The notes beneath the pieces were generated by a model, which had not been told where the DNA came from, searched no databases, and worked only from the letters and a program-made list of their open reading frames with translations. The translations under genes and the position numbers were made by a program. Of a stretch of 64,000 nt of DNA, positions 17,830 to 39,212 are shown piece by piece; the stretch's first letter is position 1; each line of letters opens with the position of its first letter. The stretch is taken from assembly GCA_001899635.1 (NCBI GenBank), contig MKVQ01000043.1:679962-743961 (forward strand), written 5' to 3'. This DNA is from Myxococcales bacterium 68-20. Lineage in GTDB: Bacteria > Myxococcota_A > Polyangia > Polyangiales > Polyangiaceae.

Positions 17830-17838
17830 CGGGGGGCG

Positions 17839-20946: not shown

Positions 20947-21112
20947 GTCCCGGTCTCCCTTCGATGACTTCTCGTGCCGACGCGCACGGCACCATCGCGA
21001 CTAGCGCCACGCCCAAGCGCGCATTCACTCCCGCGCCTTCGGGCCGAGTGGTCGTGCGCGACGTTCCGCCCGCGCCTGCTACCCGACTGCGTCCGAGGCA
21101 CCGCCCCGGTCG

Positions 21113-22063: not shown

Positions 22064-22189
22064 GCTCGTTCTCCTTCGCGGCCGAGTTCGGCCGACTGAC
22101 ATTGTCTTCGTCCCCGCAGATCGCATCAAGGACTTGATCTTCGTATCGGGCCTTCATCCTGGGGCTCGCTTCCCAAAGCCTTCGAGACG

Positions 22190-22552: not shown

Positions 22553-22557
22553 CCAGG

Positions 22558-22621
22558 GCGCGGGTTAGACCGCGCAGGCTCGCGGGTTAGACCGCGCCGA
22601 GAAGCGCAGGCTAAACCGCGC
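22558..22621. repeat. three REP-like hairpin repeats
   Basis: GCGCGGGTTAGACCGCGC (22558-22575), CGCGGGTTAGACCGCG (22581-22596) and GCGCAGGCTAAACCGCGC (22604-22621) recur every 23 bp. The first two are short palindromes with loop GTTAGA. They lie between two convergent genes, a typical place for transcription-terminating REP elements. Confidence 0.6.
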
Positions 22622-22793
22622 CCCGGCCCCAGCGCCTGGGGGCGCTCTCCCCGTGGACGACGATGGCCTCATCGATCTCGAGGATCACGACGGCGAGCTC
22701 TTCGAGGTCCTCGGCGCTCGCGCGCTCCTCGATGGCCTTGCGGGCGAGACGGAGGGCGCTGGCGAGCAGGGCGTCGATTCGGCGTCTGGGCAT
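22611..22793 (-). CDS. small acidic helical protein next to ADP-ribosylglycohydrolase
   Basis: A 60-codon gene starting at ATG 22793, 10 bp after the stop of the ADP-ribosylglycohydrolase gene on the same strand. It reads MPRRRIDALLASALRLARKA and then EERASAEDLEELAVVILEID. Helical, charged and compact, it could be a regulator or partner of the upstream enzyme, but no family is recognised. The stop overlaps the third REP-like repeat. Confidence 0.55.
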   Translation of the reverse strand: MPRRRIDALLASALRLARKAIEERASAEDLEELAVVILEIDEAIVVHGESAPRRWGRGAV

Positions 22794-22803
22794 GCCCCGA
22801 CTG

Positions 22804-23901: not shown

Positions 23902-23973
23902 GGCCTCCTCTGCCCGCTCCGGCGTTCCCGAGACGGTCGTCACGTAGACGAGCACTGGTGAAGATCGGGACGG

Positions 23974-24747
23974 ATGGCAAACGGACAAGGGCGAGTGATC
24001 GGATACACGCGCGTAAGTACAGAGGAGCAAGCGGCAAGCGGCGTCAGCTTGGACGCTCAGGAAGCGGCCCTCCGCGCTTACTGCGCCATGCGCGGCCTCG
24101 ACCTCGTCGAGATGATCGTCGACGCCGGAGTCAGCGCCGGGAAGCCGCTCGCTTCGCGCGAAGGTGGACGTCGCGTGATCGACCACGTGCGAACAGGCAG
24201 CATCGTCGCGGTCGTCGCCTACAAGCTCGATCGCGTCTTCCGAGACTGCGCCGACTGTCTCGCGGTCGTACGGGACTGGGACGAGCGCGATGTCGCCCTT
24301 CACCTCGTCGATCTCGGCGGGCAGACGATCGACACCGGGACGGCGATGGGGCGATTCTTCCTCACGGTGATGGCGGGCGCCGCCGAGCTTGAGCGGAACC
24401 TCATCGGAGAGCGAACCAAGGCGGCACTCGCTCACATCAAGAGGGACCGTAGCGTGAAGCTCGGGGCGCCTGCACTCGGATGGACCCGCACCGACGAACG
24501 CGACGCTGACGGGCGGCTCGTCGCTCGCGAGGTCGACGGCGAGGTCGCCACGGTGAACCGCATCGTCGAGCTGCGCGCTCAGGGGCTCTCTCTCCGAACC
24601 ATCGCAGCAACTCTCACGAAAGAGGGGCGGATGACCAAGCGGGGAGGAGCGTGGCGTCCCGTGACCGTCGACCGCGTGCTCCGTCGGCAGAGCTGCGACC
24701 GGCCCTGGCGAGCGAGCTCCAAGGGCGGCCCCGCCTCTTCAACTTGA
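23974..24747 (+). CDS. serine recombinase (resolvase/invertase family)
   Basis: Site-specific recombinase of about 257 aa. The catalytic Ser15 is in VIGYTRVSTEEQ, a resolvase motif (VVAYKLDRVFRD) contains the active-site Arg, and ELERNLIGERTKAAL lies in the long linker helix. The C-terminal part is a helix-turn-helix/recombinase region (GLSLRTIAATLTKEGRMTKR, ending at AWRPVTVDRVL). The last about 20 residues diverge from the family, so the 3' end may be altered. It lies 72 bp from the divergent ADP-ribosylglycohydrolase start and may have mobilised this cluster. Confidence 0.9.
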   Translation: MANGQGRVIGYTRVSTEEQAASGVSLDAQEAALRAYCAMRGLDLVEMIVDAGVSAGKPLASREGGRRVIDHVRTGSIVAVVAYKLDRVFRDCADCLAVVRDWDERDVALHLVDLGGQTIDTGTAMGRFFLTVMAGAAELERNLIGERTKAALAHIKRDRSVKLGAPALGWTRTDERDADGRLVAREVDGEVATVNRIVELRAQGLSLRTIAATLTKEGRMTKRGGAWRPVTVDRVLRRQSCDRPWRASSKGGPASST

Positions 24748-24969
24748 TCGAGACGCGAGACTCCGTCGTCAAAGCGCTGTCTCCGGCGCTGCGCCCCCGA
24801 TTCGCAGACACGGGCCACCATGGAAAAACGAGTGAACGGCCGCCGGCAACATGAGGCTACGGAGACCAAGTAGATCAAGGTCGAGGGCAGCATCATCCAC
24901 ACGGCGCGGACCTCGAATCGTGTCGCTATCGATTGACGGCTAGGAGGGAGGAATACATTCTCGTCCGCG

Positions 24970-25611
24970 ATGGCAATTCGCACGTCACCGGCGCTCGCGT
25001 TCATCGTCCTGACAGGCCTATTGGCCGGATGCAAGTCGCAGGAGCAGCGCGAGCGAGAGGCCTTCATCGCGCAGAACTGCCCCGGAATGACGGACTACAC
25101 CGGGTGCCAGCTCTTCCTAAAGTCGAAGGAGCACGACGCGAAGCACCGTGCGCAGCTATCTGCTGCACCGCCGCCTAGCACGGCGCCGGCGCCTGTTGCC
25201 GCCCCGACAAAGGCTGCCACTCCCGTCACCACCGCTGAACGCGCGCGCATTCTCGCCGGGATCGCGGACCTGAAGGCGCTCGTGCTCAAGCGTACCGCCA
25301 ACGGCGTCGCGGCTGATACAGAAGAGACGTGTGATGCCCGTCAGAGCCGAATGATGGTCGCGGCAAAGGCTGCCGAGTCGAAGATTGGTGAGGAACGCAT
25401 GCTGCAGAAAACGCGGTTCGCGATGCGTGCGCCCGACCTCGGTCAAGACCTAGGCGGCGTCGTGTCAACGTGTCTGATGGGGTGCCTGCTCGACGAAGAA
25501 TCTGATCCTGGCCACAAGGACGGTCGCGAATTCGTCTACCGGAGCTGCCGGCAGTCTGCCACCGCTCTTGACGATCTCGCGGAGCAGGTGGAGGCGCTGC
25601 CCTCAAAGTAA
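24970..25611 (+). CDS. exported lipoprotein, unknown function
   Basis: Protein of 213 aa with signal peptide SPALAFIVLTGLLAGC (lipobox LAGC, Cys about residue 18) followed by KSQEQREREAFI. It has an Ala/Pro/Thr linker at about 60-80. The C-terminal domain is helical (RARILAGIADLKALVLKRTA, CDARQSRMMVAAKAAESKIG), with four Cys likely to form disulfides. No family is recognised. It is a single gene, convergent with the Qat operon end at 25891 across a 279-bp gap in which I see nothing. Confidence 0.72.
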   Translation: MAIRTSPALAFIVLTGLLAGCKSQEQREREAFIAQNCPGMTDYTGCQLFLKSKEHDAKHRAQLSAAPPPSTAPAPVAAPTKAATPVTTAERARILAGIADLKALVLKRTANGVAADTEETCDARQSRMMVAAKAAESKIGEERMLQKTRFAMRAPDLGQDLGGVVSTCLMGCLLDEESDPGHKDGREFVYRSCRQSATALDDLAEQVEALPSK

Positions 25612-25890
25612 CACCCGACATGAAGCGGACGTGCGTCGAATCCATGGCCGAGGTTGGGCTAGTGACTCCGCTCTCGTGTCGGTTATGGCATTGACCAAAA
25701 CGTAGTGTCGTCGTCGTCGCCGTACCTGCAGGCTGGTGCGACCGACCCCGTGGACGCACGTGCCGAGTCGATCTCGGCGGCTGGGACCAGTCCAGGTCAG
25801 CTCCCCTCAACGATAGCGGCGAGATGAGGCGCCTGTCGGGGTTGCTGAGCGTTGACACCGCGAACCGCGAAGTACGAAGAGCTGACTTGG

Positions 25891-26661
25891 TTAGGGCCTA
25901 TCTTCAGCGAGCAGGAGGTTTCGCAGGTTCCTAGCGATGGTCTGAGCCATCGCCTCGGGTTGAACTGCCCGGACTGCAGCCAGCGACGCGATCACCGAGC
26001 GGACATCGCCCGGCCTTGCAATGCGGCCCTCGACCTTCGTGAAGGGGCCGTCCGTCTCGGTGAGAAGCCTCTCCGTCGGCAGCGTCGCGACCAGCGTCCG
26101 GTGCCGATCGCTGTCCAGCATCGCCGCGTTGATCGAAAAGTAGCATCCCAGGTCGATCGCACGCCGCGCTTCGGCCTGCGTGCCGGTGAACCAGTGAAGT
26201 ACGAGCCGCGTGCGATCTGGGCGAAGGTGCGCTTCGACGAGGTCGAGCACCGCCTTCACGGCGCGAACGCTATGCACTGACAGGATCTTCCCGCCCTGCC
26301 GATCGCACTCCCTGAGGATGGTCGCGAAGACCTCCTTCTGTTGCTCGAGCGACCGAAAGAAACGTGGGCCTGCATCCAGTCCGACTTCACCGACGTAATG
26401 CGCTTCGGTGAGGAGTTCCCTCCACAACGCGAGTTCTGCCGCTCGCTCGGCGACAAGTTGTGGATGGAGCCCGAGCGCAACGCGTACGAACTTGGAGTGC
26501 ACGGCGAGCTCTCGATTCCGACGCCACGCCTTCGGTGTTGTCGTAACGGCCAGAGTGTACACTCTCAGACGTTCGCACTCGGCGATCAGAGCGGCGTGAT
26601 CCTCGTAGAGGTCGACGTGACAATGGAAGTCGACGAGCGGTGGTTGCGTCACGGCGGCCAT
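25891..26661 (-). CDS. qatD: QatD, TatD-like metal-dependent DNase
   Basis: Last gene of the Qat operon, 256 aa, TIM-barrel hydrolase of the TatD family. Metal ligands are intact: H13 and H15 in VDFHCHVDLY, E92 in VGEVGLDAG, H130 in ILSVHS, H156 in LVLHWFTGT, and D204 in TETDGPF. QatABCD was shown experimentally to protect against phages in a published screen of defence genes. The biochemical role of QatD (probably nucleic-acid cleavage) follows from its family. The start overlaps the qatC stop (TGATG), implying coupled translation. Confidence 0.93.
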   Translation of the reverse strand: MAAVTQPPLVDFHCHVDLYEDHAALIAECERLRVYTLAVTTTPKAWRRNRELAVHSKFVRVALGLHPQLVAERAAELALWRELLTEAHYVGEVGLDAGPRFFRSLEQQKEVFATILRECDRQGGKILSVHSVRAVKAVLDLVEAHLRPDRTRLVLHWFTGTQAEARRAIDLGCYFSINAAMLDSDRHRTLVATLPTERLLTETDGPFTKVEGRIARPGDVRSVIASLAAVRAVQPEAMAQTIARNLRNLLLAEDRP

Positions 26662-28022
26662 CAGCTCGGCTTCGCGATCGTGTTCGCGAGTAGCGCGCCG
26701 ACCTCGTCCATCCCACGGCGGTAGACGGATGCGAGTTCAGCGAGCCGGGGCTCCTCATCGCGCAACGGGCCCGACTTGTGAATGAGGATCCGTTCGATGC
26801 CCGGCTTCGCTTTGAGCCTCGCTGCGGCAAGCTGGAACGAACGGACCTGCTGCCCTTCGGCTTGGCGTGTGTCGAGCGGACGCGCCGAAAGATCCGCGAC
26901 GGTGTACGTCGTGGGGTCGTTGCCGCGGCCCCACGCTCGCTCAATCGCCGCCCGGCGAATCAGGCATGGTACGCAGTACCCGCAGTGCTCAATCCCGTGC
27001 CCCTGCCAGCGTGCCTTGGCGGGCGACGAGCAGGACATCGACGATGGCACTAGCTTCTGAAGCAGCGAGGGATTCCGACACTCGGCCGCCATCTCGCCCT
27101 TCGTCCGATTCCAGTAGCGGTTTGTAACGAGCGCCGGAATGCCGAGTTGTCGGAGGAGCTCGTTCCATCGGGCGAGATAGAAGGGGTGTGTTGTCCGCGT
27201 GCTCAGTGAGCCGAGACGGAGGACGTCGAGCGGCACGTTCAGCGCGATCAGGCCGTTCTCGGGAATCTCGAGTACGAATTGTTGCTCGAGTCCGCTTCCT
27301 GCGGCGACCCCAAGGGCGATGAAAAGAAACGAGCGTCCGCGGGTCGTGTTCTCTGATCGTACATCCTTCACCAGCCCCTCCGGGAAGCTGATCCACGCGC
27401 GAAGTCGCGCTAGCGACGGGGTCGCGTATTGGGTGCGCACGCCTTCGAAACAGGCGGTCTGCGCCTCGCTGGTCGCGCCCTCCGACGCATGGCTCACGAA
27501 GAGCGGGTTGGCGCCCGCGTCGACCGCGTCGATACCGCCAATCAGGCTGTCGAGCCCACCCGAAAAGAGGCTCACCTGATCGAATGCGCGCTGCGAGCTA
27601 CTTTGCGCCCTCCCGCCAATGGCGAGCGTGAACGCGCTCGCGCGCGGAACGAATGTGAGGTCCCAGATGTCGCCCGTGAGAAACGACAAGATCGTCTTGA
27701 GCAAGTCACTGCACGCCGCCCAGCGGTCTGGGGCGCTCACGGGAACGACGAGGCGAAGTTCGCGGGTCCACGTGTCCTGCGATTCAGTTGTCCTGGCGAC
27801 CCGGGTGTCCGCGGCATGTACCAGCGCAGCGAGGAGCAGAAGGTCGATTCCCACGTCCGTGGCGGGAACGCCAAGCTCCTTCAGATCGCGGAGCACGTTG
27901 CCTACGCCGTGCTCGAGGCGACCGTCCGCGCTGCCGAGCAGAACGTTGGTCACCGTCTCGTCGGATGGCGACGCCGTTCCGTCAATCTTTCCGAGATGTC
28001 CAATGAGAGTGTGGCGCGTCAT
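26661..28022 (-). CDS. qatC: QatC, QueC-like nucleotide-modifying protein
   Basis: Protein of 453 aa. The N-terminal about 140 residues are specific to QatC. A PP-loop ATPase domain like that of 7-cyano-7-deazaguanine synthase follows, with motif FSGGLDSLIGG at residues 153-163. Near residue 355 the QueC-type zinc site reads EHCGYCVPCLIRR. The chemistry is predicted to be an ATP-dependent conversion or conjugation related to deazaguanine synthesis, but the substrate in Qat is not established. It overlaps qatB by ATGA and qatD by TGATG. The catalytic motif and zinc ligands are complete, so it looks functional. Confidence 0.93.
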   Translation of the reverse strand: MTRHTLIGHLGKIDGTASPSDETVTNVLLGSADGRLEHGVGNVLRDLKELGVPATDVGIDLLLLAALVHAADTRVARTTESQDTWTRELRLVVPVSAPDRWAACSDLLKTILSFLTGDIWDLTFVPRASAFTLAIGGRAQSSSQRAFDQVSLFSGGLDSLIGGIDAVDAGANPLFVSHASEGATSEAQTACFEGVRTQYATPSLARLRAWISFPEGLVKDVRSENTTRGRSFLFIALGVAAGSGLEQQFVLEIPENGLIALNVPLDVLRLGSLSTRTTHPFYLARWNELLRQLGIPALVTNRYWNRTKGEMAAECRNPSLLQKLVPSSMSCSSPAKARWQGHGIEHCGYCVPCLIRRAAIERAWGRGNDPTTYTVADLSARPLDTRQAEGQQVRSFQLAAARLKAKPGIERILIHKSGPLRDEEPRLAELASVYRRGMDEVGALLANTIAKPS

Positions 28023-28891
28023 CGCCCCTCCTCGGCTTCGCCCATCAGCCTCAAGATCTCGAACGCGCTCGCGTAGACCTCGTCGACGAACTGAAGCACG
28101 CTGCGCGTCGTCAACGCTGCCAGCGCTGCGCGGGCGTCTGCGAGCGCGTCCGCAACGCCCCGTCGAATGAAGTCTCGAAGCTGCGCTTCGACGGCTGCGG
28201 CCGCAAACGCGCTCGCCGGCATCGCCACCGTCTTGGCGCCGATATCGTTACATAGGCGCGCTTCGATGGCGTGCGTCGCGTAGATCTCGAAGACGGTCTG
28301 CATCTGATCCGTCGACAGAGTCGCGAGATCGGAGATGCCTTCGGCCGCGAGTTGCGCAATCGTCTCGATGAAGGCGTCACGTGCGATCCCATCGTCGACC
28401 GTCCCGCCCACGGGACAGACGAAGTCAGCAAGCCCAATGAAGATCTCTTCGACGGAACGACCGGCAAGCGCTTCGAGATTGAGCGCGCGCAACGCCGCAG
28501 GGACGCCCCGAGCCTGAACGTCGCTCAGGAATCCGAGGAGGCCTGCGGTCGCTCTCCGCGAAGCCCCGAGCCGACGGGCTGCGAGAGCGGAGCCGCCAGC
28601 CGCTCCCGACACGTAGCCGGACACCGCTCGGCCAAGGCTCCGTCGATCGGTTCCGCCGGACGTCGCGAAACGCGTGAGGCTCGCGCGCGGTGCTGCGAAG
28701 CGCCCGGGATCGGCGGGTGGCTGAGGGACGCCGACGTCTGCGCCCGACATAGGGTCAGCAAGCGCCGCCTCTTCACCCGACTCCGCATCGGTTCCCGGGG
28801 GTACGGTCGCCGCGGACGCTTCCGCGTCAACCCAGCTTGGGACCAGCGGCGTGCCCCCGCCGGGGCCACGGTATGAGCTTGATGTTCCCAT
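28019..28891 (-). CDS. qatB: QatB, Qat anti-phage system component
   Basis: Protein of 290 aa; the ATG at 28891 overlaps the qatA stop (TGATG). The N-terminus reads MGTSSSYRGPGGGTPLVPSW, the Ser/Gly/Pro-rich beginning typical of QatB, followed by an acidic disordered stretch. From about residue 95 it is helical (GRAVSGYVSGAAGGSALAAR, RATAGLLGFLSDVQARG). A C-terminal helical domain contains IEARLCNDIGAKTVAMP. The molecular role is unknown; it is required in the described Qat systems. The assignment rests on the N-terminal pattern and its place between qatA and qatC. Confidence 0.9.
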   Translation of the reverse strand: MGTSSSYRGPGGGTPLVPSWVDAEASAATVPPGTDAESGEEAALADPMSGADVGVPQPPADPGRFAAPRASLTRFATSGGTDRRSLGRAVSGYVSGAAGGSALAARRLGASRRATAGLLGFLSDVQARGVPAALRALNLEALAGRSVEEIFIGLADFVCPVGGTVDDGIARDAFIETIAQLAAEGISDLATLSTDQMQTVFEIYATHAIEARLCNDIGAKTVAMPASAFAAAAVEAQLRDFIRRGVADALADARAALAALTTRSVLQFVDEVYASAFEILRLMGEAEEGR

Positions 28892-30888
28892 CAATGCGAT
28901 GCTTTCTTCAGCCGGAGTGTAGTGATCGCGGCCCTGACCATCGAGTCCTTCGTTGCGATATGCAGCCGTCCGAGGAAGTCTTCGAATCTCGCCAACGATG
29001 CGGCTTCGACCACGACGCCTGTCCACCCCTTCACGATCCAAGCGCCAACGCGCTCGGCGGGAAGGCGTTCTAGGAAGTCCACAAGTTGCATCTGCAGCGT
29101 CGGATGCGCCTTTACGAGGGCGATGAGTCCTGCGACGCCCTCTGGCTCCGTGGCGAAGGCGTCGCTCGCGAGGATGCGTTCGCAAACCGCGTTGAACACG
29201 GTGCCGGCCTCCGACGGCTTCAGGTTCTTCAGGTCCGCATCGGCGCCCTGAACCGCGAGCTTCGATCCGAGTAGTCGTTCGACGACCGAAGCGAGGTGGC
29301 CGAGAGCCGAGACACCAAAGAAGTCTTTCCGATCCTTCGCGACGAACAGGTACGCCCGCAGGTCAACGTCGCCGAGGACCGGTTGCACACGGGCCCATGC
29401 AAGCGTCCGCGGCGATGCGAGCCATTCTGACAGGATCGTACTTTCGGTGGCTTGCTTCGGCGCAGGTTCATCCTTCGCAGCCTCTTTCGCCATCGCAGGC
29501 TTCGTCGCAGCCTCTCTCGCCACCGCAGGCTTCTTCGTCGCCGAGACAGCCGGAGCAGGCGGTGCCGACGCGGCGCCTTCGAGCGCACTCAGGTCAGGGC
29601 AGCGACCATCCGGCGCTGCTGCAGCAAGCGTCGCGATCTGATCAAACAGCCGGGGCTCGAACCGCTCGGAAAGCATGAGCTTCGCGAGCACGGGCAACTT
29701 GATATCCTCGCCGAACCCGCGCGCCTGCGCGGTTGCATGACGAAGCTGCAGAGAGTTCAGAAAGCGCTTGATCTGGCGCGGGTTGCCCCTCGTCCCGGTC
29801 GCAAGGACCGGGCCGATTTGATCGCTCAACACCAGCGCCGCGTCGGCCTTGCTCGCGTGCTTTCCCAGAACCTCCTTTACGATTGCCGGGTCGAGTCGCT
29901 CGCCCTGCCACGGACGTCGGAGGCGTTCGCGTGCCGCGACGATGAGTGCTGCAAACTCCGGCGCGCTGTCGCCTAGCGCGGCGCCGATGAGGAGGAGCGT
30001 TACGTAGATCCGCGTCTCCGCCTCGCCGAGCGCCGGAATCCGAAACGGAACCTGGATGAGCTTCTCCAGATAGTTCCTCGCGTAGTCGCGGGGGCCCGAC
30101 GTCTCGGGCAAGTCCGGGAAGTGCTTACGGACGGCGTACTCGATCATCGCCTCGTCGGCGGCGACCACGAATGCGGTCCGTGCCATGAAGACGAAGAGCC
30201 GAACAGCTTCGAGGGTCTCGATGGCGGTGTCCGGAAGACAGCGATCCAGATCGTCGATGAGGACAACCAACTGCTCGATACCAGCACTCTCGAGAAGCGA
30301 TTCGAACTCCCTGCGGAACTCCTTGATCTGTTCGGGCACCGTCTTCACTTCGAGCGGCTTGAGCAGCCCGCCGGCCCCGTCGTCGGCCTTCAGGCTGGGC
30401 GCGATCTTCTCGCCTGCCGACATGAGCTGATGTGTGACGCCGGCGGTAGCGATTGCATGAGCGAGTTCGCCCTGGCCCGACAAAGCCGCGAGCAACGCCG
30501 GTCCGTGCGACAGGGCGAGGCCACCGCCCTTCTTGGCCAGCTTCAACCAGTCGATCCTGGAGAAGAGCTTCTTGACGCGTTCGACGAGGCCGGCGGCGAC
30601 ACCTCGCTTCTCCGCGATCTCGGAAACGATCGCCTCCAGGAGCGCGATCTTCGCGTCCTCAAAGCCCTGAAAACGCCAGCCATTGAACTTCAGGCAGAGT
30701 ACCCTGCTGTCGGGTTCAAGCGCGGCTTCAATCATCTCGAGGACGCTCGACTTGCCCGCGCCCCAATCGCCATGCACACCGACGGTGACCGGGCGCTCGG
30801 GCTTGCTGCGGAGCAAGGTGATGATTGTTTTCGCGATCGCCTCGTTGTTGAGCAGATCGACCTTCGTCTCGTTGTCGGTCAGCAGCAT
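28891..30888 (-). CDS. qatA: QatA, KAP-family P-loop NTPase
   Basis: First gene of the operon, 665 aa. KAP NTPase with Walker A GDWGAGKS (residues 40-47) and Walker B LVVLIDDLDRC (about 207-217). The sensor-like segment GNPRQIKRFLNSLQLRHA is typical of KAP proteins. A weakly hydrophobic insertion at about 120-150 occupies the place where many KAP proteins carry membrane helices. Residues about 450-490 form an Ala/Lys/Pro linker built from tandem repeats, followed by a helical C-terminal domain. It is presumed to be the ATP-driven sensor or effector of the Qat defence system. An AAGGAAC site precedes the ATG. Confidence 0.92.
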   Translation of the reverse strand: MLLTDNETKVDLLNNEAIAKTIITLLRSKPERPVTVGVHGDWGAGKSSVLEMIEAALEPDSRVLCLKFNGWRFQGFEDAKIALLEAIVSEIAEKRGVAAGLVERVKKLFSRIDWLKLAKKGGGLALSHGPALLAALSGQGELAHAIATAGVTHQLMSAGEKIAPSLKADDGAGGLLKPLEVKTVPEQIKEFRREFESLLESAGIEQLVVLIDDLDRCLPDTAIETLEAVRLFVFMARTAFVVAADEAMIEYAVRKHFPDLPETSGPRDYARNYLEKLIQVPFRIPALGEAETRIYVTLLLIGAALGDSAPEFAALIVAARERLRRPWQGERLDPAIVKEVLGKHASKADAALVLSDQIGPVLATGTRGNPRQIKRFLNSLQLRHATAQARGFGEDIKLPVLAKLMLSERFEPRLFDQIATLAAAAPDGRCPDLSALEGAASAPPAPAVSATKKPAVAREAATKPAMAKEAAKDEPAPKQATESTILSEWLASPRTLAWARVQPVLGDVDLRAYLFVAKDRKDFFGVSALGHLASVVERLLGSKLAVQGADADLKNLKPSEAGTVFNAVCERILASDAFATEPEGVAGLIALVKAHPTLQMQLVDFLERLPAERVGAWIVKGWTGVVVEAASLARFEDFLGRLHIATKDSMVRAAITTLRLKKASH

Positions 30889-31932
30889 CGAACGTTCCTT
30901 CGTGCCTCTGGCGGCACTCTACAGCACGGGACGCCCCCTCGTACCCTATCGCGACCTGCGGACGGAATTCGGTTTGGCATTGCTCCGGTCTGGGTCACCT
31001 CGCGCAGAGACCCAGGACAACCGACGCAAAGTAGCGTCACTACTCCTCCTCATCGGTGACGGCCGCCTGGTGGCCGAGGCGGGGCGCGCCGCGTGACGTA
31101 CACGTACGCGCTGCGTCGGCCCGTTCTCGAGGGGTGCGGGCCGACGCAAGCTCGCCGTCGCGGACGTGTGATCGGACGGTCACGGATCGGAGGCGGTCTT
31201 CGGGACGTTTTCCGCGACCGAGGAGGCGAAGACGCAAGCTCGCCGTCGCGTCCGCGGCGCCGTCCGTGAACGGTGAATCGCTGGCGCGGAGAGACTGACG
31301 ACAACCTGCTCGCGGCCTATCGCGCATGCACACCGGCCTCCGTCTCGACCGCGAAGCGTCGGCGGTGCATTCAACATTGCGCACGATGGGTCTTCTCGCG
31401 GGCTATCAGGTCAGATCGACCTGGGCCGTCGCGACGTGCCAAGTTCCGTCGATGCGCGGGATGCGTCCGCCGACCTCGCGGGACTCGGCAACGGCACTAA
31501 CCGTGACGGTTCAGCGTACCTGTACTTCTTCTGGAGGCGCTCGTAGTTTGCGGAGGCGCCCCCCACCACTGGCCGGCCCCTGCCGAACGGACGCGCCATT
31601 CGAGACTGCCATCACGCCTCCGTCCCTCGACACTCGACTTCGACGACTGCAACTTCGCGAGCATCGGTTCCTGCTCAGCCGGCGCGCCATCAGCTTGTGA
31701 CGCGGCGGCCGTGACCCAAGCTCAAGCGGTAGGCCGGTGGCGAGGGCGCGCCGACCAGGGGAACGCTGACGCGAGAGCACGCACCGTCAACCCCGGACAT
31801 CCAGGGGGCTGCCGGGACGATTCCATGCTGTTCGTCGGCGGGCCGAAGCCGTCCGATTGGAGGAGCGCTCGGGCGAACGAGAGGTGACGCTTCCAAGCAA
31901 ACGGACGCCGTGAGGCCGTCGAGGAGCGAACG
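30889..31932. other. about 1 kb without a supported gene
   Basis: Only short Arg/Ala/Ser-rich frames are open on either strand. It contains a 20-bp direct repeat GACGCAAGCTCGCCGTCGCG at 31143-31162 and 31231-31250. It separates the divergent Qat operon and the plus-strand island genes, so the promoters of both should be here. I could not pick a convincing -35/-10 pair. Confidence 0.4.
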
Positions 31933-32634
31933 ATGAGCACCACCGAGAACGCGAAGCGCCCCCCCGCAACGAGCACCGCAAAGCCGCATGCCGAAGGTGG
32001 TGGCCGCGACCTGGGCGCGAAGTCAAGTGCCTCCAAGAGCAGCGCCGGCACCGCCGCCCCGCCCACGCAGAGTGCCGCCCCGAAGGTGAAGCAGGAGTCG
32101 CCAGCTACAAAGAAGAAGGTCACCTACGAGAAGCGGATGCGCGATCTCGCGCCCGTCGTCCGAGTGCGCCGGAAGCTCGAGAGCACGGTCAAGCGATTCA
32201 CAAAGGTCGCCGCCGAAGTCGAACGATGGAAGAACGCACCTGCCCTTCGCGAGGCCGCGACGGATGTAGCCACCTCTCTGGCGGCGATGCTCAGCGAAGC
32301 GACAACGATGCCCGACGACTTCAAGCCGGAACGAGACCGCAAGGCGAACGGGCACCAGCTCGCCGTCGGCGCGAAGGTCACGCTCCGGGAGAAGTTCGTC
32401 GCGCGGTACGAGGACGTCCTGGGGCCCGCGGAACGCACGAGCCTCGAAGTGATCTCGGTCGCGCGTGGTCACGTCTCGGTGAAGACGTCTACGGGATCGC
32501 GCCTCGTCCTCCCGCGTGGCCACGTAACAAGACTCTCCACGAGCAATCCCCCCGCCGCGAATACGACGCGCGATCCATCTATCGCCTCCCCCCACGTGAT
32601 CTCGGGCATCGCGCGAGAGCGTCGCGAAGCGTAG
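31933..32634 (+). CDS. hypothetical protein, disordered N-terminus and coiled coil
   Basis: Protein of 233 aa; ATG preceded by GAGGAG. Residues 1-65 are Lys/Ala/Ser/Pro-rich and probably disordered. About 66-135 are helical and charged (YEKRMRDLAPVVRVRRKLES, VKRFTKVAAEVERWKN). The C-terminal part is a small beta-barrel-like domain (LAVGAKVTLREKFVARYEDV, TSLEVISVARGHVSVKTSTG) resembling a SH3/KOW-like fold. It may bind nucleic acid, but this is inference. It is the first gene of the plus-strand cluster beside Qat, 25 bp before the HNH-like gene. Confidence 0.65.
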   Translation: MSTTENAKRPPATSTAKPHAEGGGRDLGAKSSASKSSAGTAAPPTQSAAPKVKQESPATKKKVTYEKRMRDLAPVVRVRRKLESTVKRFTKVAAEVERWKNAPALREAATDVATSLAAMLSEATTMPDDFKPERDRKANGHQLAVGAKVTLREKFVARYEDVLGPAERTSLEVISVARGHVSVKTSTGSRLVLPRGHVTRLSTSNPPAANTTRDPSIASPHVISGIARERREA

Positions 32635-32659
32635 ACGACTCGCGATATAGTTGCGCACC

Positions 32660-33652
32660 ATGGCCGCGACCGACCAGTGCAGGCTCTGTCGGAGGCGCGG
32701 CATGACGCTTCGGTCGAGTCACGTCGTACCCAGCTTCGTCTTCCGTTGGATGCGCGAGTCTAGTCCAGGGTTCATGCGCGACGGCATGAACGCCGACCGC
32801 CGCGTCCAAGACGGACCTAAGCGCCCGTGGCTCTGCGACGAATGTGAGCAGCGCCTCTCCCAGTGGGAGAAGCCGTTCGCCGAGCAGCTGTTCGCATACG
32901 TGCATCGGACGTCGGAAGATCAGAAGGCCGTGAGCTACGGCGCCTGGGCGATAAAGTTCGCCGTCTCGGTCTCGTGGCGCACACTCCTCTACTACCAAGA
33001 GCAGTCCGACTATCGAGCCCCTACGCACATGAACGCCGAGAATCTCGCCGCTGCGGAGCGCGCTGAGTCAAGGTGGAGAAGGTTTCTTCTGGACGAAGAG
33101 GAGCACCCTGGTCCTTTCGAGCAGCACGTCCTCTTCGTCGACACTCCAGCCGAAGTGAGGGGGTCCGTCTCACCGTTCATAAGCCGCTACCTGACGCGAT
33201 CGGTGCACATTGACCTGCTCGCGGCGTCGTCGACGTGTGTGACCTACACGAAGCTTTGCCGAGTGGTCGTGTTCGGCTTTGTGCAGATGCCTTCCCCTGG
33301 CAAGTGGAAGGGCACGAAGCTACATGTCAAGAAGGGCTCCATCGGCGGTCGCGGACGCGCGGAGATCCCGGAATGGGTCCTCAACTACTGGAACGAGAAG
33401 GCCGATGCGATGGGCACGGCATTCGCTGGCATGTCCCCGAAACAAAAGCAGCGGGTGAGCGACATGTTCAGAAGCACGCCGCTCGACGCTCTTGGCGCAT
33501 CGGAGGCGTTTCGTGCGATGCGTGCGGACGTCGCGCTCAGTGGGAAGCGTGCGTTTTCGGCCACGGGAAGACCAGTCGGCATGTCGGGTGCCGTCGATCT
33601 GGCCATCCAAGACGGCGAAGACGGCGCTGAACCTGAGGGCAGAACTCCATGA
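32660..33652 (+). CDS. Cys/His-rich HNH-like protein
   Basis: Protein of 330 aa; ATG 32660 preferred (a TTG 9 bp earlier is possible). The N-terminus has CRLCRRRGMTLRSSHVVPSF, then WLCDECEQRLSQWEKPFAEQ. This CxxC ... S-H-x-x-P ... CxxC arrangement resembles the treble-clef zinc site of HNH nucleases, with the His of SHVVP as candidate catalytic residue. The rest (about 100-330) is a mixed alpha/beta domain with no recognised family. It lies in a cluster with a HEPN-signature protein next to QatABCD, so a defence nuclease is plausible. Nuclease activity is inferred from motif spacing only. Confidence 0.75.
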   Translation: MAATDQCRLCRRRGMTLRSSHVVPSFVFRWMRESSPGFMRDGMNADRRVQDGPKRPWLCDECEQRLSQWEKPFAEQLFAYVHRTSEDQKAVSYGAWAIKFAVSVSWRTLLYYQEQSDYRAPTHMNAENLAAAERAESRWRRFLLDEEEHPGPFEQHVLFVDTPAEVRGSVSPFISRYLTRSVHIDLLAASSTCVTYTKLCRVVVFGFVQMPSPGKWKGTKLHVKKGSIGGRGRAEIPEWVLNYWNEKADAMGTAFAGMSPKQKQRVSDMFRSTPLDALGASEAFRAMRADVALSGKRAFSATGRPVGMSGAVDLAIQDGEDGAEPEGRTP

Positions 33653-33686
33653 CCGCGCTGCGGTCGACGGCTGCGCGCCAGCGAGA

Positions 33687-35267
33687 TTGCGGACGACGGC
33701 GCGCGCGTGGCCGAACGACGACCGCGAGTTTTTTCGAGAGATTCAGCTCACGCATCTCGGGGGATGTGGAGGCGACGTGATTCGCGATCTGGAAGAGCAG
33801 CTCCTTCGCATCCCTCGACCCGAGGCTCGGGAACAGATGGCCGAAGCGGTGCGGTGCTACCACGCGGGCGCGCATCGAGCGGCGATCGTGATGGCGTTCG
33901 CAGCGGCGATGGACGATCTGCGACGGAAGCTCGTCGATCTCGCCGGCAGCGGTGGCGCCTCGTCAGACCTCAAGGCAGCGGTCGGCCACATCGAAAGCAC
34001 GTTCGCCTTGCAGCGGGCGTTTGAAGAAGACGCCATCGCGACTGCGCAGGTGCACGCCCAGTTGATCTCGCCCGACGAGGCGAAGGCACTTCAGTCTTAC
34101 CTCAAGCTCCGCCATCTCTGCGCGCACCCTTCCGGATACGTCGCAACCGCCGAGGAGGCGCGCGCCGTGATCGCGCGAGTGACGGATTCCGTCTTGTCAC
34201 GTCCGGCGACCTTGGGAATGGTTTTCGTCGATCAGCTACTACAGCGCCTGCGCTCGGAACACTTTTTCCCCGCGCAGGACGTCGAGTCGGTGACCAAGAC
34301 CCTCGGTCACGAGCTGTCCGTCATGTCACCGGGGCTCTTGCCGGCGCTGATCTTGAAGCTCGCCGATGCAATGCGAACGGAGAACGAGGCCGCTCCGCCC
34401 AACCAGCGGCTCCGCTTTCTCCGCGCTCCTCTATATCGAAACGCACTCGCGGCGCTCTCGGGCCTGGCCACCTTGCCCCAAGCGGAGGCCATGTTCTGGC
34501 GGCAGCGCGCCGTGCAAGAACTCGTTCTCTCGCCCGATGATCCCCTGACGGCGCTGTCATTGCTCGCCGCTCGCCCTGCCGCGATCACGACACTCGACGA
34601 CATCACGCGCGGCCGCCTGCTCCTCGTCGCGAACCGCCATCTTCATGACGCCGACGTTCGCCAGCTCCTCAAGGCGCTCGAACCCTTTCTGCGTCCGGGT
34701 GAACGCAACGATCTGGCGCAATCTCTCAAGCGCGACTTCGTTGACTCGTTGGCGCCGAGATCTCCCATTATGCTCGCGGAGGTGGGCTGGCCGGACCTCG
34801 AGGACGCACTCGTCGAGCGCGTCTTGGCTCAGGCCAGAGCCACGAGCTACATCGAGGTGAATATCGCGATCGGGGCTGCGGACGCTCTCACGGCTGGCCA
34901 GGTCAGCCGAATCTCCGCAGAGCGGAGAACGGAGTTTCTACTCGACATCGCCTTGAAGACGGAAGGCACGTACCCGTCGTTCGTCGCGAGAGATCGGAGG
35001 AAGGACGGGCTGGGCGCACGCACCGACTTCATCGATGCCGTCATCGAGACGGCCAGGGGCGACGTAAGGCTGTTTGTCGACAAGGAGGCCGGCCTGCATG
35101 CACACTTCGAGATGCTGCTGGCCTCGCAACGACCGGATGCGGTCGCCGCGATTATTGGGGCACTGACGACAGCTTCGCGTGTTCTGCCGGAGCGGGCGCG
35201 GGAGGCAGCGGCCCAGTCGACCTTCCCCGAGATCGTCGCCGCGGTTGAGGATGCTCTCCCCGTCTGA
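33687..35267 (+). CDS. HEPN-signature helical protein, candidate RNase
   Basis: Protein of about 526 aa, almost entirely helical. The first in-frame start near the previous stop is TTG 33687. Residues about 50-165 look like a HEPN domain: MAEAVRCYHAGAHRAAIVMA, a long loop, then LKLRHLCAHPSG, which contains R142-x4-H147, the Rx4-6H signature of HEPN ribonucleases. The remaining about 360 residues are helical and resemble an alpha-solenoid scaffold (QLLQRLRSEHFF, LLPALILKLADAM, LLEALEPFL-type helices). It is 34 bp after the HNH-like gene and in the same apparent operon. It is a candidate abortive-infection type effector; the start codon is uncertain. Confidence 0.78.
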   Translation: MRTTARAWPNDDREFFREIQLTHLGGCGGDVIRDLEEQLLRIPRPEAREQMAEAVRCYHAGAHRAAIVMAFAAAMDDLRRKLVDLAGSGGASSDLKAAVGHIESTFALQRAFEEDAIATAQVHAQLISPDEAKALQSYLKLRHLCAHPSGYVATAEEARAVIARVTDSVLSRPATLGMVFVDQLLQRLRSEHFFPAQDVESVTKTLGHELSVMSPGLLPALILKLADAMRTENEAAPPNQRLRFLRAPLYRNALAALSGLATLPQAEAMFWRQRAVQELVLSPDDPLTALSLLAARPAAITTLDDITRGRLLLVANRHLHDADVRQLLKALEPFLRPGERNDLAQSLKRDFVDSLAPRSPIMLAEVGWPDLEDALVERVLAQARATSYIEVNIAIGAADALTAGQVSRISAERRTEFLLDIALKTEGTYPSFVARDRRKDGLGARTDFIDAVIETARGDVRLFVDKEAGLHAHFEMLLASQRPDAVAAIIGALTTASRVLPERAREAAAQSTFPEIVAAVEDALPV

Positions 35268-35343
35268 CGGCTCGATAGCCCACGATCGGGCGTTCCCGTT
35301 CGTTCAATACGATCGGTACCGCCATCGAGGGGCGTTGTAGACG

Positions 35344-36018
35344 ATGGCATCGCGGCGGAAGACCGACGCGGGCGCGGGCGCGGGCGTCCCCAGCCACGAC
35401 ATCCTCGCGCAGGTCGTCGAGCCGTTGCTTCGACTCGTGGTCGAGATCGCCGAGAAGGAGACCAACCATACAGAGCGACGGCTCATCGAGGCGAAGCTCG
35501 CGAGTATCGAGGCGTGGGCCGCGAGAGCTAGGCGGCGGCGACGGTCAACGACCAAGTCGCCCAGTCCCCCCGGTCGCGTCGAGCGCGACACCGATATTGC
35601 AGATGCTCTCCGCTCCGTTCTCTCCGCTGTCGCCCGCTCGCGGCTTCCCCGCTTGCTCGCGCGCGAGGCGAGGGCATCCACGGTGCTCAACGACTTCGAC
35701 TTCGTCATGACGGTCCTCGATGGCCGCAAGACCGAGGCCGACCTCGCCGTCGTCGACGGTAGAGTCGAGCCCACGTTCGAGGCACTCCTCAGCGAGCCTG
35801 GTCTCCTTGCGAACACTGCCGCCGAGCGGCGCCAGATGAAGCCGGTGCTCGCGGGTTTGGACGGACGACGCGGCGAACTAGCCAAGACGGCTCTCGTCGC
35901 GGCCGGAGAGAGCATCGTCGCCATCCGCCTCGTGTTGCCCCCATCCGGAGTGCGCGAGGCGCGGATTGCTGCTGCCCGCAGCGGTCGTGGCGAGCGGCGT
36001 CGGCGCCGAGCAGTGTGA
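35344..36018 (+). CDS. hypothetical protein in island operon
   Basis: Protein of 224 aa. The N-terminus is Gly/Ala-rich, followed by helices (DILAQVVEPLLRLVVEIAEK, IEAKLASIEAWAARARRRRR). The basic middle segment may touch nucleic acid. The C-terminal half is helical (RVEPTFEALLSEP, RRQMKPVLAGLDGRRGELAK) and ends in an Arg-rich tail. No family is recognised. Its stop overlaps the next start (GTGA), linking it to the genes leading to the recombinase. Confidence 0.6.
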   Translation: MASRRKTDAGAGAGVPSHDILAQVVEPLLRLVVEIAEKETNHTERRLIEAKLASIEAWAARARRRRRSTTKSPSPPGRVERDTDIADALRSVLSAVARSRLPRLLAREARASTVLNDFDFVMTVLDGRKTEADLAVVDGRVEPTFEALLSEPGLLANTAAERRQMKPVLAGLDGRRGELAKTALVAAGESIVAIRLVLPPSGVREARIAAARSGRGERRRRRAV

Positions 36019-36650
36019 AGACTTGCCAGGAATCTCCATCGTCTGATCGTTCAGCAGAGTGTTTCCACGTGCGACGGTGTCCCGAAGACGAACCGACCTT
36101 CTTCGCCTCGCTGAGCACGACGATGATCACACGCAGACACGCGCATGGCGCTGCTTCAGGCGGAACCACCTTCCAGGCCGCGCATGTCGGCCCGGCGCTT
36201 CAATCACGCACCGCGAAGCTCTGCTTCGAGCCGTTCACTTCGGCGCGCGCGATTGATGAGCTCGCCGACGTTCGACGTGAAACTCGCAGCGCCGTGCTCC
36301 GGGTCGCTCGTCTCGGCGCCAAGGATCGCCATCACGGACATCTCCGGCAACTCGCTCTTGTGCCCGAAGAGCTCGTCCCAGACGTTCACGCGGAGTTCGA
36401 GCTCGCCGAGCAGATGGTCCAGCGCTCGGCCTACGATGCGCTAGCGGGCTCGCGATCGCCCCGGCCCTTCACTTCGCCTCACAACGCCAAGGTCGTCTCC
36501 ACCGGGGCCTCGGGGGAGGATGGAGGTCCCTCGTCAGATGCCATGGCACTGTCACGCGATCGCGAAGTGGCGCCTCTGACGCCCGCGGACCTCGTCCACT
36601 TCGTCGAGTTCTTCCGCCGGCTCGACGCCTGGAAGAAGGAAGCCCCATGA
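36015..36650 (+). CDS. doubtful ORF upstream of recombinase; 3' part likely real
   Basis: A 211-codon frame starting at a GTG that overlaps the previous stop and ending in ATGA with the recombinase start. The first two thirds look poorly protein-like, and a minus-strand frame at 36204-36435 (e.g. NVWDELFGHKSELPEMSVMA) competes for the same DNA. The last 35 codons from ATG 36543 (REVAPLTPADLVHFVEFFRR) look genuine and coupled to the recombinase. Small proteins of this type often precede myxobacterial serine recombinases. I favour a short gene 36543-36650, with the rest uncertain. Confidence 0.4.
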   Translation: MKTCQESPSSDRSAECFHVRRCPEDEPTFFASLSTTMITRRHAHGAASGGTTFQAAHVGPALQSRTAKLCFEPFTSARAIDELADVRRETRSAVLRVARLGAKDRHHGHLRQLALVPEELVPDVHAEFELAEQMVQRSAYDALAGSRSPRPFTSPHNAKVVSTGASGEDGGPSSDAMALSRDREVAPLTPADLVHFVEFFRRLDAWKKEAP

Positions 36651-38287
36651 AGCCTCGTCATGCGCACGGCCATCCGGCGTGGTGGGACGCGGGGAACACC
36701 CGCGCGATGCTCGTCTGTCGGATCAGCGACCGAAAGCAGAAGGACGGCGTCTCGCTCGATGCCCAGCAGCACCTCCAGGAGCGATACGCGCGCGAGGCCG
36801 GTCTCACCGTCGCCTCGGTCGCCTCGTTCCAGGAGTCGGCGAAGAAGTCGACCCTCCGGTCCCAGTTCCACGCCGCCATCGCGAAAGCGCGCGCCCAGGG
36901 CGTCAAACACCTCGTCTTCTACGTGTGGGACCGCATCGCGCGGAACTTCACGGATGCCGAGATCCTCGAGGAGATGGTTCGGGAGGGAGAGATCGTCATC
37001 CACATCGCGTGCGGAGGGACCGTCCTCCACGAGGACAGCGACGACTCGGAGTTCTTCCTTTTCGACATCAGCATCGCGCACGCGAAGCAGGACAACCGCG
37101 CCCGCAAGAGCAAGACGATCGACGGCATGGAGCAGCGGTGCCGCAACGGCTGGTATCCGAGCCGTCCGCCGACCTTCTACTGGCAGGACCCGGATCTCGA
37201 CGAGCACGGGCGCCCGAAGAAGCGCGGGAGCACCGTCGCTGGACCGACGCCCGAAGGGCGGCGCCTCGTTCGACGCGAGATGGATCTCCACCTCAAGGGC
37301 TATAGCCTCGACCGCATTCGCGAGACTTGCCTCGGAGAGCAGCTCGTCCCGCCGAACATGATCCCGAGCTACTACCGCACGACCGTCGAGAAGCATCTGA
37401 AGCAGGACTTCTACGCGGGCATCCCGAACCCGCACGATGGCTTCAAGAGCCAGTTCACCTGGCGCGACACCTGGTACGAGGCCAAGCACGAGCCCATCTT
37501 CACCGCCGAGGAGTGGCGACGCCTGCAGGCCTCGTTCGGCAAACAGGGGACCTACCGCAAGCTGAAGCACGAGGGCCTTTTCAACCAAGGGCCTCTCTCG
37601 CTGACGTGTGCCGCTCCGGGATGTGGCTGCAAGATCACGTTCGCCCCTAAGACGAAGGGCACGGGCGAGCACACGCGCGAGTACCGCTACTACCGCTGCG
37701 CCGACGGCAAGCGCGTGCACGTCGATGGTGGCGAGCGTCAGGTCAACGTCCGCGAGGAGGACATCCTCGACGCCCTCGGCGAAGCCGTCGAGCGCATCGC
37801 CATCGACGACTTCATCGCCGAGGCGATCGCTCACGCGCTCAACGTCACGCACCGTGAAGCGAAGGCCGCGCGCTCGAAGGCAGCCGAGACCTACCGCGCC
37901 GAGCTCCAAGCGCTCGACCAGAAGGAGAACACCCTCGTGGACGTCCTCACCTCCGGCAACATCGACGCCGAGACGTTCAGCCGCCAGCAACGGCGCGTCC
38001 GCGCCGAGCGCGACGCGCTCTTCGACAAGCTCCGCGAGGCGGACGCGATGATCGACGACGGGTACCTCGTCACCGCGCACCGCGTTTTGGAACTCGCGAA
38101 GTCCGCGCGAACACTCTGGAATGGGCGAAGCGCCCAGGAGAAGTGCGAGCTCCTCGAGAAGCTGGTTTGTAACCCGCGCCTCGAGGGCCGAACCGTTCGT
38201 TATGACCTACAAAAGAGCTTCGCCGCGCTAGCCCAGATGCGCGGCGAAGAGGGGTGGCGTCCCCGACGGGATTCGAACCCGTGTTAG
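36647..38287 (+). CDS. large serine recombinase (integrase) ending inside tRNA-Glu
   Basis: Site-specific recombinase of 546 aa. Catalytic domain with Ser27 in MLVCRISDRKQKDGVSL and Arg motif VWDRIARN. A recombinase domain follows (LVRREMDLHLKGYSLDRIRE, KQDFYAGIPNPHDGF). The zinc-ribbon has CAAPGCGC and YYRCADGK, and the coiled coil spans about residues 400-450 (YRAELQALDQKENTLVDVL). The last 11 codons (PRRDSNPC end) are the complement of the 3' part of the tRNA-Glu gene, so integration at the tRNA supplies the C-terminus and stop codon. It overlaps the preceding small ORF by ATGA. It is probably the integrase of the whole island. Confidence 0.93.
   Translation: MKPRHAHGHPAWWDAGNTRAMLVCRISDRKQKDGVSLDAQQHLQERYAREAGLTVASVASFQESAKKSTLRSQFHAAIAKARAQGVKHLVFYVWDRIARNFTDAEILEEMVREGEIVIHIACGGTVLHEDSDDSEFFLFDISIAHAKQDNRARKSKTIDGMEQRCRNGWYPSRPPTFYWQDPDLDEHGRPKKRGSTVAGPTPEGRRLVRREMDLHLKGYSLDRIRETCLGEQLVPPNMIPSYYRTTVEKHLKQDFYAGIPNPHDGFKSQFTWRDTWYEAKHEPIFTAEEWRRLQASFGKQGTYRKLKHEGLFNQGPLSLTCAAPGCGCKITFAPKTKGTGEHTREYRYYRCADGKRVHVDGGERQVNVREEDILDALGEAVERIAIDDFIAEAIAHALNVTHREAKAARSKAAETYRAELQALDQKENTLVDVLTSGNIDAETFSRQQRRVRAERDALFDKLREADAMIDDGYLVTAHRVLELAKSARTLWNGRSAQEKCELLEKLVCNPRLEGRTVRYDLQKSFAALAQMRGEEGWRPRRDSNPC
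38255..38287. other. putative attachment site in tRNA-Glu 3' end
   Basis: The 33 bp shared by the tRNA-Glu 3' half (T-arm, acceptor stem, CCA) and the end of the recombinase gene. tRNA 3' ends are common integration sites, and the recombinase sits directly beside it. The matching second copy (left junction) was not found in this window, so this is inference. Confidence 0.55.
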
Positions 38288-38330
38288 CGGCGTGAAAAGC
38301 CGCGGTCCTGGGCCTCTAGACGACGGGGAC
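38255..38330 (-). tRNA. tRNA-Glu (UUC)
   Basis: 76-nt tRNA with encoded CCA. Acceptor stem GTCCCCG pairs with CGGGGAC. Anticodon stem GCGGC/GCCGC encloses loop TTTTCAC, giving anticodon TTC. T-arm CGGGTTCGAATCCCG contains the canonical TTCGA. The structure is complete although the 3' end overlaps the recombinase coding sequence on the other strand. Confidence 0.97.
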
Positions 38331-38405: not shown

Positions 38406-39212
38406 TCAGCTCACGGCCCGGTTCAGCCCGGCCACCACGCTGCGGAGGACGGCGCGGGGGGCGAAGCGGACGCTCTGCATCCCGATCCAGTTGAGGGCGC
38501 CGTGGATCGAGAGGATCTGGCCCTTCATCATCGCGCGGTAGGCGTCGGCGGCGACCTCCTTCGCGCCCGCAACGCCGCTGCGCTGGAAGAGGCGGGTCTT
38601 GTCGTTGCCGGCCGTGGTCGCGAACTCGGTCGCGGTCGCGCCCGGGCAGTAGCAGGTGACGCTGACGCCCGTGCCTTCGAGCTCGTAGGCGAGCGCTTCG
38701 GTGAAGGAGACGACGAACGCCTTCGTCGCGTAGTAGGTCGCCATGTACGGGCCCGGTTGGAAGCCCGCCGTCGACGCGATGTTCATGACGCGTCCGAAGC
38801 CGCGCGCGCGCATCGGGCGGGCGAGCTGGTGGGTGAGCTCGACGAGCGAGCGCACGTTGACGTCGATCATCTCGAGCTCACGCTTCAGGTCGAGATCGAG
38901 GAACGCGCCGTTCGAGCCGAAGCCGGCGTTGTTGACGAGGAGGTCGACCGTGAGTCCGCGGACTCGGACCTGCTCGACGACGGCGGCCGGCGCAGCTCGA
39001 TCGCCGAGGTCGGCGGCGATGACGTGCGCTTTCACGCCGTAGGCCTTCGTCAGCTCGGCGGCGAGCTCCTCGAGCTTGTTCTCGCTCCGGGCGACGAGGA
39101 CGACGTCGTGTCCGTCGGCGGCGAAGAGCTGCGCGAGCTCCTTGCCGATGCCGGCGGAGGCACCGGTCACGAGGGCGGTCTGCTTGGGTTGGCTCGTCGC
39201 TTCGTTGGCCAT
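38406..39212 (-). CDS. SDR-family oxidoreductase
   Basis: Short-chain dehydrogenase of 268 aa. NADP-binding motif TGASAGIG at residues 16-23, NNAG in LLVNNAGFGSNG, catalytic Ser in NIASTAGFQPG, Y-x-x-x-K in MATYYATKAF, and CPGATATEF after it. The pattern matches DltE/YqjQ-like SDRs acting on unknown substrates. It is the first backbone gene beyond the tRNA-Glu gene, with a 75-bp gap. Full family length and intact catalytic residues suggest activity. Confidence 0.93.
   Translation of the reverse strand: MANEATSQPKQTALVTGASAGIGKELAQLFAADGHDVVLVARSENKLEELAAELTKAYGVKAHVIAADLGDRAAPAAVVEQVRVRGLTVDLLVNNAGFGSNGAFLDLDLKRELEMIDVNVRSLVELTHQLARPMRARGFGRVMNIASTAGFQPGPYMATYYATKAFVVSFTEALAYELEGTGVSVTCYCPGATATEFATTAGNDKTRLFQRSGVAGAKEVAADAYRAMMKGQILSIHGALNWIGMQSVRFAPRAVLRSVVAGLNRAVS

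Follow-up and report, generated by a model that had tools for sequence, protein, structure and literature searches.

A large serine recombinase gene ending inside a tRNA-Glu gene of Myxococcales bacterium 68-20, and exchange of recombinase C-termini at tRNA genes in related elements

The 64,000 nt stretch analysed here (the window) is part of the 11.9 Mb, 52-contig genome of Myxococcales bacterium 68-20 (labelled G000 in our genome set; window C43:679962-743961), and carries a single tRNA gene detectable by ARAGORN, a tRNA-Glu(TTC). An intact open reading frame (ORF) on the opposite strand runs into the 3′ end of this gene, and its 546 aa product terminates in GWRPRRDSNPC (coordinates in Table 1). 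The protein has Pfam matches to Resolvase (3.5e-13) and Recombinase (6.4e-7), with the catalytic Resolvase domain preceding the Recombinase domain, identifying it as a large serine recombinase (LSR). The GC3 (G+C content at third codon positions) of the gene is 0.87. An earlier note on this DNA had placed both the gene and a 33 bp overlap with the tRNA correctly; the 11 recombinase codons that it counted there are reached if the stop is included, the overlap consisting of 10 sense codons and the stop codon TAG, all antisense to the tRNA 3′ end.

Members of the same LSR family (family A) were found at E ≤ 1e-20 in 11 of 183 genomes of the order, six of them with full-length genes (G000, G023, G117, G118, G099 and G154). 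Nine of the 11 loci enter a whole tRNA-Glu gene (eight UUC and one CUC, the latter in G164), giving the configuration by which a tRNA-targeting integrase is recognised across hosts, an integrase gene next to a tRNA 3′ end. The stop codon lies inside the tRNA in G000, G099, G007, G121, G152 and G164, and in G023, G117 and G118 the recombinase frame crosses the entire tRNA and stops just past it. The two remaining genes end in about 24–26 nt (G154) and 13–15 nt (G108) of tRNA sequence followed by other DNA, and seem to be genes displaced from the tRNA.

LSR genes were surveyed more widely by following the frames of PF07508 matches in the 183 genomes to their stop codons, at 90 loci from a longer list (30 as returned by the search and 60 taken roughly down the ranking, several from one genome); none was a family A gene, and two had no stop within the locus. 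Twenty-seven of the other 88 stop inside an antisense tRNA gene (13 Met, eight Glu(UUC), two Glu(CUC), two Arg, one Ala and one Asn), compared with about 0.02 expected by chance if 60 tRNAs per 9 Mb are assumed. Together with the nine family A loci, this excess confirms that the overlap in the window is real and beyond chance, and the survey supports tRNA genes as targets of LSRs in this order. When 29 tRNA-Glu loci were picked by their tRNA as a control, three contained the stop codon of an antisense ORF of at least 200 aa, and all three ORFs are recombinase-like: an LSR in G005, an LSR-like protein (22.6% identity to the window protein, E 2e-14) and, by motif reading, a tyrosine integrase. 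A convergent gene with no stop of its own before the tRNA would give a similar overlap devoid of meaning, the RRDSNP tail being what an antisense frame over the tRNA gives anyway, and the frame passing the whole tRNA in three family A loci. Such plain read-through is very improbable, given that recombinase-like ORFs account for all three antisense stops in the control, that 27 of 88 LSR genes stop in a tRNA, and that the insertion point and a tail swap are observed directly, as follows.

Two genomes of one genus, G159 and G024, carry the same LSR gene (LSR-X) before and after an insertion. In G159, LSR-X ends in tRNA-Glu, its product terminating in CLKSASPAGFEPA, and in G024 the LSR-X region recurs over 5.3 kb at 88.9% identity, with 36,005 bp and then the tRNA after it. 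On the right, the two genomes share 147 bp at 95% identity including the tRNA, with 71 bp of flank past it. The junctions place the crossover at GCGTCCCC-AG-CGGG, which is the acceptor/T-stem junction of tRNA-Glu. The phage-type attachment site (attP) of the G024 element reads almost as a palindrome around AG, GTGCAGTACCGTTTGCGTCCCC-AG-GGGGACACGAACGGTACTGCAC, and a near-palindromic attP is expected for a serine integrase. The resident LSR-X has had SPAGFEPA replaced by SPGGHERYCTSKKRR...LWN, and in G024 it ends in CLKSASPGGHERYCTSKKRRMQGYQMPLPVQILWN; its tail differs between the two genomes because the 36,005 bp insertion exchanged it. The inserted element has a recombinase of its own (LSR-Y), which ends in tRNA code (SPAGFEPA) and acquires a longer tail once the element ends are joined in silico. 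An LSR with a tail of the LSR-X kind is also present at tRNA-Glu in G170. Tail exchange therefore occurs in the tRNA-targeting LSR class, and the insertion point, both ends of one element and the exchanged resident tail are all visible in these relatives.

By analogy with this wider class, family A and the window copy would follow the same scheme, and we consider it likely that the window gene encodes the integrase of a mobile element that targets tRNA-Glu, with attP across its own 3′ end and the bacterial attachment site (attB) in the 3′ half of the tRNA gene. A two-base crossover would occur at the acceptor/T-stem junction. On integration, the element would give the tRNA its 3′ acceptor strand, and the antisense of the tRNA would give the integrase its end and stop codon; on the circle, the integrase gene would instead finish with a tail encoded by the element. 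The earlier note had proposed that island excision would change the recombinase C-terminus. This is borne out in part: the exchange it foresaw is seen in G159 and G024, and for the window itself no left end was found in 418 kb.

Gene order to the right of the tRNA is conserved across genomes of the same genus (e.g., G003, G005, G009 and G011), whereas synteny is absent to the left, and GC3, based on our own ORF picking, is 0.79–0.94 on the right and mostly 0.7–0.85 on the left. The one-sided synteny and the difference in GC3 indicate that tRNA-Glu marks an island-type boundary. A flank gene of G009 has its match in G000 at a distance of 96 kb to the left of the tRNA; it was considered as the native left flank and set aside, no att-like sequence having been seen at that position. 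A comparison with empty sites in relatives, proposed earlier, bears out the boundary on the host side and also yielded G007, whose assembly seems to contain the site in both states: occupied in one contig, which has a family A gene at the tRNA, although a truncated one, and empty in another, which has a terminator-like hairpin there. The two contigs have exactly 119 bases in common (5′ flank, tRNA and a few bases beyond).

Other LSR islands were scanned for a left end consisting of a core plus a matching palindromic arm. The T-loop pattern used missed five of 21 islands, one of which (G100_GluC) was scored separately, giving 17 scored islands; three of the four unscored islands (the fourth is that of G031) had no listed repeat in a direct-repeat search. 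Candidate left ends, with a displaced fragment of the tRNA end, were found for seven. In G024 the end scored 30 against 21 for the next position (z = 8.0 among the positions of a 44 kb flank), in G039 (tRNA-Met; element 9,198 bp) it scored 30 (z = 7.9), and in G148 (tRNA-Met; element 18,935 bp) 26 against 22 (z = 5.9). The left end in G108 is firm by context, and those in G015, G005 and G100 are suggestive. The core common to both ends is 10–11 nt in these relatives, and in all seven islands the joined (circular) form would, in silico, encode a protein 20–41 residues longer past the core. Sixteen of 29 residues agree between the reconstructed circular-form tail of G148 and the tail of a different LSR (L197), compared with 25% for the alignment as a whole.

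A quickly built tree groups 50 LSRs in one clade, with 16 rows in a Glu subclade and 34 in a Met subclade (one of the latter at tRNA-Ala). The frames of 24 end within a tRNA; among the remaining 26, a Glu or Met core directly precedes the stop in 19 (Glu 5/6, Met 14/20), compared with two (Glu) and none (Met) among 35 background LSRs. We read the genes that have a core and no detected tRNA stop as displaced or free-state genes, although for some the tRNA was perhaps missed by ARAGORN or cut by a contig end. An LSR of this larger clade occupies the same tRNA-Glu in G005, a genome of the same genus as the window. The window lineage stands apart from the clade on a long branch, its exact place being unsure in a tree of this kind. 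For the clade as a whole we put forward, tentatively and at somewhat less than an even chance, that tRNA genes serve as replaceable 3′ ends of integrase genes, that the tail records the integrated or circular state, that it is possibly a directionality switch, and that the arrangement probably arose more than once, the window lineage and the clade standing apart in the tree but both occurring at tRNA-Glu. As part of the same tentative reading, the integrated enzyme would have a short tRNA-coded tail, and the circular enzyme would have an element-coded tail of 20–41 residues. Such a tail could act instead of, or alongside, a separate directionality factor.

Tyrosine integrases might drive a hotspot at tRNA-Glu, with the LSR merely lying beside the tRNA. 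A tyrosine integrase-like ORF (by motifs) does enter tRNA-Glu with its C-terminus in G020 (L023), and tRNA-Glu fragments in G055, G099 and G154 are cut at the T-loop, a cut that is among the tyrosine-integrase subsites listed in PMC4383910. The LSR junctions (G024 and others) are cut instead at the acceptor/T-stem junction, their arms extending into the LSR gene, and target type tracks the LSR tree (Glu versus Met subclades), making the hotspot explanation improbable. Further loci with tRNA-Glu sequence were seen. L131, L132 and L133 (G099) and L064 (G055) resemble one another, each with a terminator-like hairpin, about 24–28 nt of the tRNA-Glu 3′ end cut in the T-loop, and then a similar start (e.g., TGGGGAACGGGCGCGATC), as if the left end of a single type of element that cuts in the T-loop were present several times. 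At about 8855–10952 of L066 (G009:C46), 2 kb lie between an intact tRNA-Glu and a 48 nt partial copy in which some of the flanking terminator-like sequence is repeated as well; this marks a small insertion whose boundary within the tRNA is a different one. An ORF at 110–1144 of L065 (G042), with a C-terminal stretch that is LSR-like by eye, ends across a 24 nt tRNA-Glu fragment and is probably a decayed, displaced LSR.

A number of results weigh against the view that the window gene is the integrase of a tRNA-Glu-targeting element. The right-hand homology between G159 and G024 extends over only 147 bp including the tRNA. A candidate left end was obtained in only 7 of the 17 scored islands (several flanks were short, 5.8–13 kb for G159, G026, G016 and G118, and short flanks occur among the ten islands without one), and those of G015, G108, G005 and G100 depend on the 10–11 nt core or on context; core-only matches, which were not counted, also occur elsewhere (e.g., G006, G118). 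In G039 the next-best position scored 28, and in G100 (tRNA-Glu CUC) the candidate left end has a competitor in a longer repeat of 24 nt at a distance of 13,458 bp, which is cut in the T-loop; these two cases lower our confidence slightly. Of the circular-form tails other than that of G148, the G108 tail matched no LSR tail, the G024 tail gave a trivial match to the same DNA, and the remainder gave weak matches. Within family A, five of the matches are partial (G007, G108, G121, G152 and G164), and no element with both ends was seen among the homologs from the 183 genomes. Host-like bases in G007 continue past the tRNA into the recombinase, so the family A crossover could lie further left. In three congeneric genomes (g13), the gene looks vertically inherited with differing DNA on its left, a pattern equally compatible with a fixed and a mobile gene.

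The left end of the window element was sought in C43:300001-751250, and that of G117 in 300 kb, using the tRNA 3′ end as a 28-mer (24-mer for the farthest part). The direct copy of the 33 bp overlap that the earlier note expected in the left flank was not found in 418 kb, and 33 bp proved the wrong length to expect, given the core of the relatives. The best other match to the tRNA 3′ end was 19/27 in the nearer part of G000, with none of at least 19/23 in the farther parts. A search for the short core with a matching palindromic arm, modelled on G024, gave no convincing left end in the same 418 kb, and none was found in 283 kb of G117, including a rescan with the core and arm model. The highest-scoring window candidate (arm 20/24, 103 kb away) was rejected, its core matching at only 5/11, and a 20/28 match in G117 was rejected as it reads like the T-arm of another tRNA.

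With no left end in 418 kb, the window element may have decayed or become fixed. We may be looking at a remnant, at a fixed copy or at one that has lost its left end, the gene itself being intact. A remnant of this kind would go back to an old integration at tRNA-Glu and would now be a gene unable to move, with a tRNA-coded tail that serves no function. It is compatible with our preferred reading on the origin of the gene and differs from it on present function, and we see the chances of it as evenly balanced. The missing left end, the five partial homologs of the 11 and the variable left flank in g13 all fit a remnant; the intact 546 aa ORF, its GC3 and the substitution pattern weigh against one. 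Between the three g13 genomes, the family A recombinase has nonsynonymous (dN) and synonymous (dS) divergences of 0.02–0.05 and 0.33–0.57 (dN/dS 0.07–0.09), showing that it is under purifying selection as a protein within this genus.

Family A homologs in named records come from metagenome-assembled genomes of Myxococcales/Polyangiaceae, and G154, G118 and G023 belong to the same family as the window genome. In samples of the class and the phylum, 9 of 317 and 5 of 377 genomes matched at E ≤ 1e-40, all of them already known, among the matches listed and with 3–4 candidates scored per genome. No family A gene was found in viral contigs; plasmids gave three records at 22–27% identity and phages one at 21%. 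In G108, genes for an MmeI-type restriction enzyme, a tyrosine recombinase and another LSR occupy the 10 kb between the family A remnant and the tRNA. The C-terminus of this second LSR is in turn written in tRNA-Glu, and its left end lies on the end of the family A remnant; the MmeI-type restriction-modification gene (L083, 7069–10665) lies between two LSRs at tRNA-Glu. Next to its family A LSR, the G154 contig encodes a MobA/VirD2-type relaxase that has DUF3363, along with a ParA-like protein (L036, 1645–5021), a gene set that suggests a mobilizable element; judged by end overlap, the contig is not a circle. The divergent C-terminus of the G154 recombinase was considered as a direct view of attP and rejected, the fragment matching the host's own tRNA for 24 nt to the T-loop; more probably, an insertion at the T-loop took place next to the gene at a later time.

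Features of the window are collected in Table 1. The last ~40 residues of the upstream ORF, the start of which is uncertain, resemble by eye those of small upstream ORFs in G023, G118, G099 and G154, making it a candidate partner or directionality factor of the family A LSR. Between 13865 and 18369 are 62 nt direct repeats, with copies at 17835 and 18308 that are 92% alike and a weaker copy at 13865.

Table 1. Coordinates of the recombinase/tRNA-Glu locus and of other features of the window.
Feature	Position	Strand	Basis
LSR gene, family A, 546 aa, Resolvase + Recombinase domains	36647..38287	+	ORF, Pfam; full-length homologs 62-66% identical
tRNA-Glu (anticodon UUC), presumed attB	38255..38330	-	ARAGORN
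33 bp LSR/tRNA overlap, stop included	38255..38287	.	ORF and ARAGORN coordinates
Predicted crossover dinucleotide GA, acceptor/T-stem junction	38265..38266	.	Inferred by position from G024/G159 (AG)
Predicted left attP half on the recombinase side; contains the tRNA 3′ acceptor strand expected to come with the element	38231..38264	+	Inferred from G024 attP palindrome
3′ part of upstream ORF (36015-36650), overlaps recombinase start	36519..36650	+	ORF list, by-eye resemblance
Host short-chain dehydrogenase, first gene of conserved host side	38406..39212	-	Pfam; synteny in G005, G009, G011
Non-syntenic, lower-GC3 DNA on recombinase side	1..38254	.	Synteny, GC3, Pfam
Mutator-type transposase within recombinase-side DNA	15333-16088		Pfam
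PIN within recombinase-side DNA	16513-16956		Pfam
KAP NTPase within recombinase-side DNA	28891-30888		Pfam

Attachment sites within integrase genes are known from several systems. The earlier note drew a parallel with myxophage Mx8, and it is apt in so far as Mx8 and Mx9 have attP inside int and integration changes the C-terminus and specificity (PMC6070905). The Mx8 integrase is a tyrosine recombinase (PMC4701971), whereas the window protein is a serine recombinase by Pfam, and a closer precedent exists in DsiB of the Dehalococcoides ssrA islands. This 540-residue serine recombinase is encoded by a gene that always overlaps att at its 3′ end, the stop codon lies in ssrA or in the adjacent island, islands occur in tandem, and its authors suggest that the enzyme is perhaps fully functional only on the circle (PMC3146451). 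DsiB is the nearest known system in behaviour; its target is a tmRNA gene cut in the T-loop with a 20 bp repeat, whereas here a tRNA gene is cut at the acceptor/T-stem junction with a 10–11 nt core. In streptococcal integrative and conjugative elements (ICEs) at rumA that have a single serine integrase, att is inside the integrase gene, and 3′ parts are swapped and the C-terminus changed (PMC4701971), although the target there is a protein-coding gene and not a tRNA gene. The suicidal integrases of archaea likewise have the att site within the gene (PMC8371274). In the window, the LSR stop codon lies in the tRNA, and an att site across the gene end is predicted; the tail change itself is seen in G024 versus G159.

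The earlier note also held that a serine enzyme at a tRNA gene was notable. Such cases are rare, but precedents at tRNA and tmRNA genes exist. Eight related serine recombinases of Mycobacterium actinomycete ICEs are found at tRNA-Leu, which the authors call rare (PMC3218068); unlike the scheme proposed here, att-in-gene or tail exchange does not figure in the passages on them. The filamentous phiRSM phages of Ralstonia encode a serine recombinase and have a 13 nt core identical to the end of tRNA-Ser, beside int (PMC3816273). They share with the present case a short core equal to a tRNA end next to the integrase gene, and differ in having a small resolvase-type enzyme and a core between ORF14 and ORF15, with no exchange of the Int tail in the passages describing them.

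DsiB at ssrA, serine integrases at tRNA genes and att-in-gene tail swaps are thus already known (PMC3146451, PMC3218068, PMC3816273, PMC4701971). No report of tRNA-targeting LSRs with tail exchange in Myxococcota was found in the literature searched, most subscription journals being outside it. What is new is the combination of an att-in-gene tail swap with tRNA genes, its frequency in this order, the mapped crossover and the comparison of two genomes. The 27 of 88 LSRs that end in tRNA genes are natural sets of enzyme, attB and attP for short, conserved targets, and tail exchange at a tRNA makes C-terminal control of integration versus excision testable.
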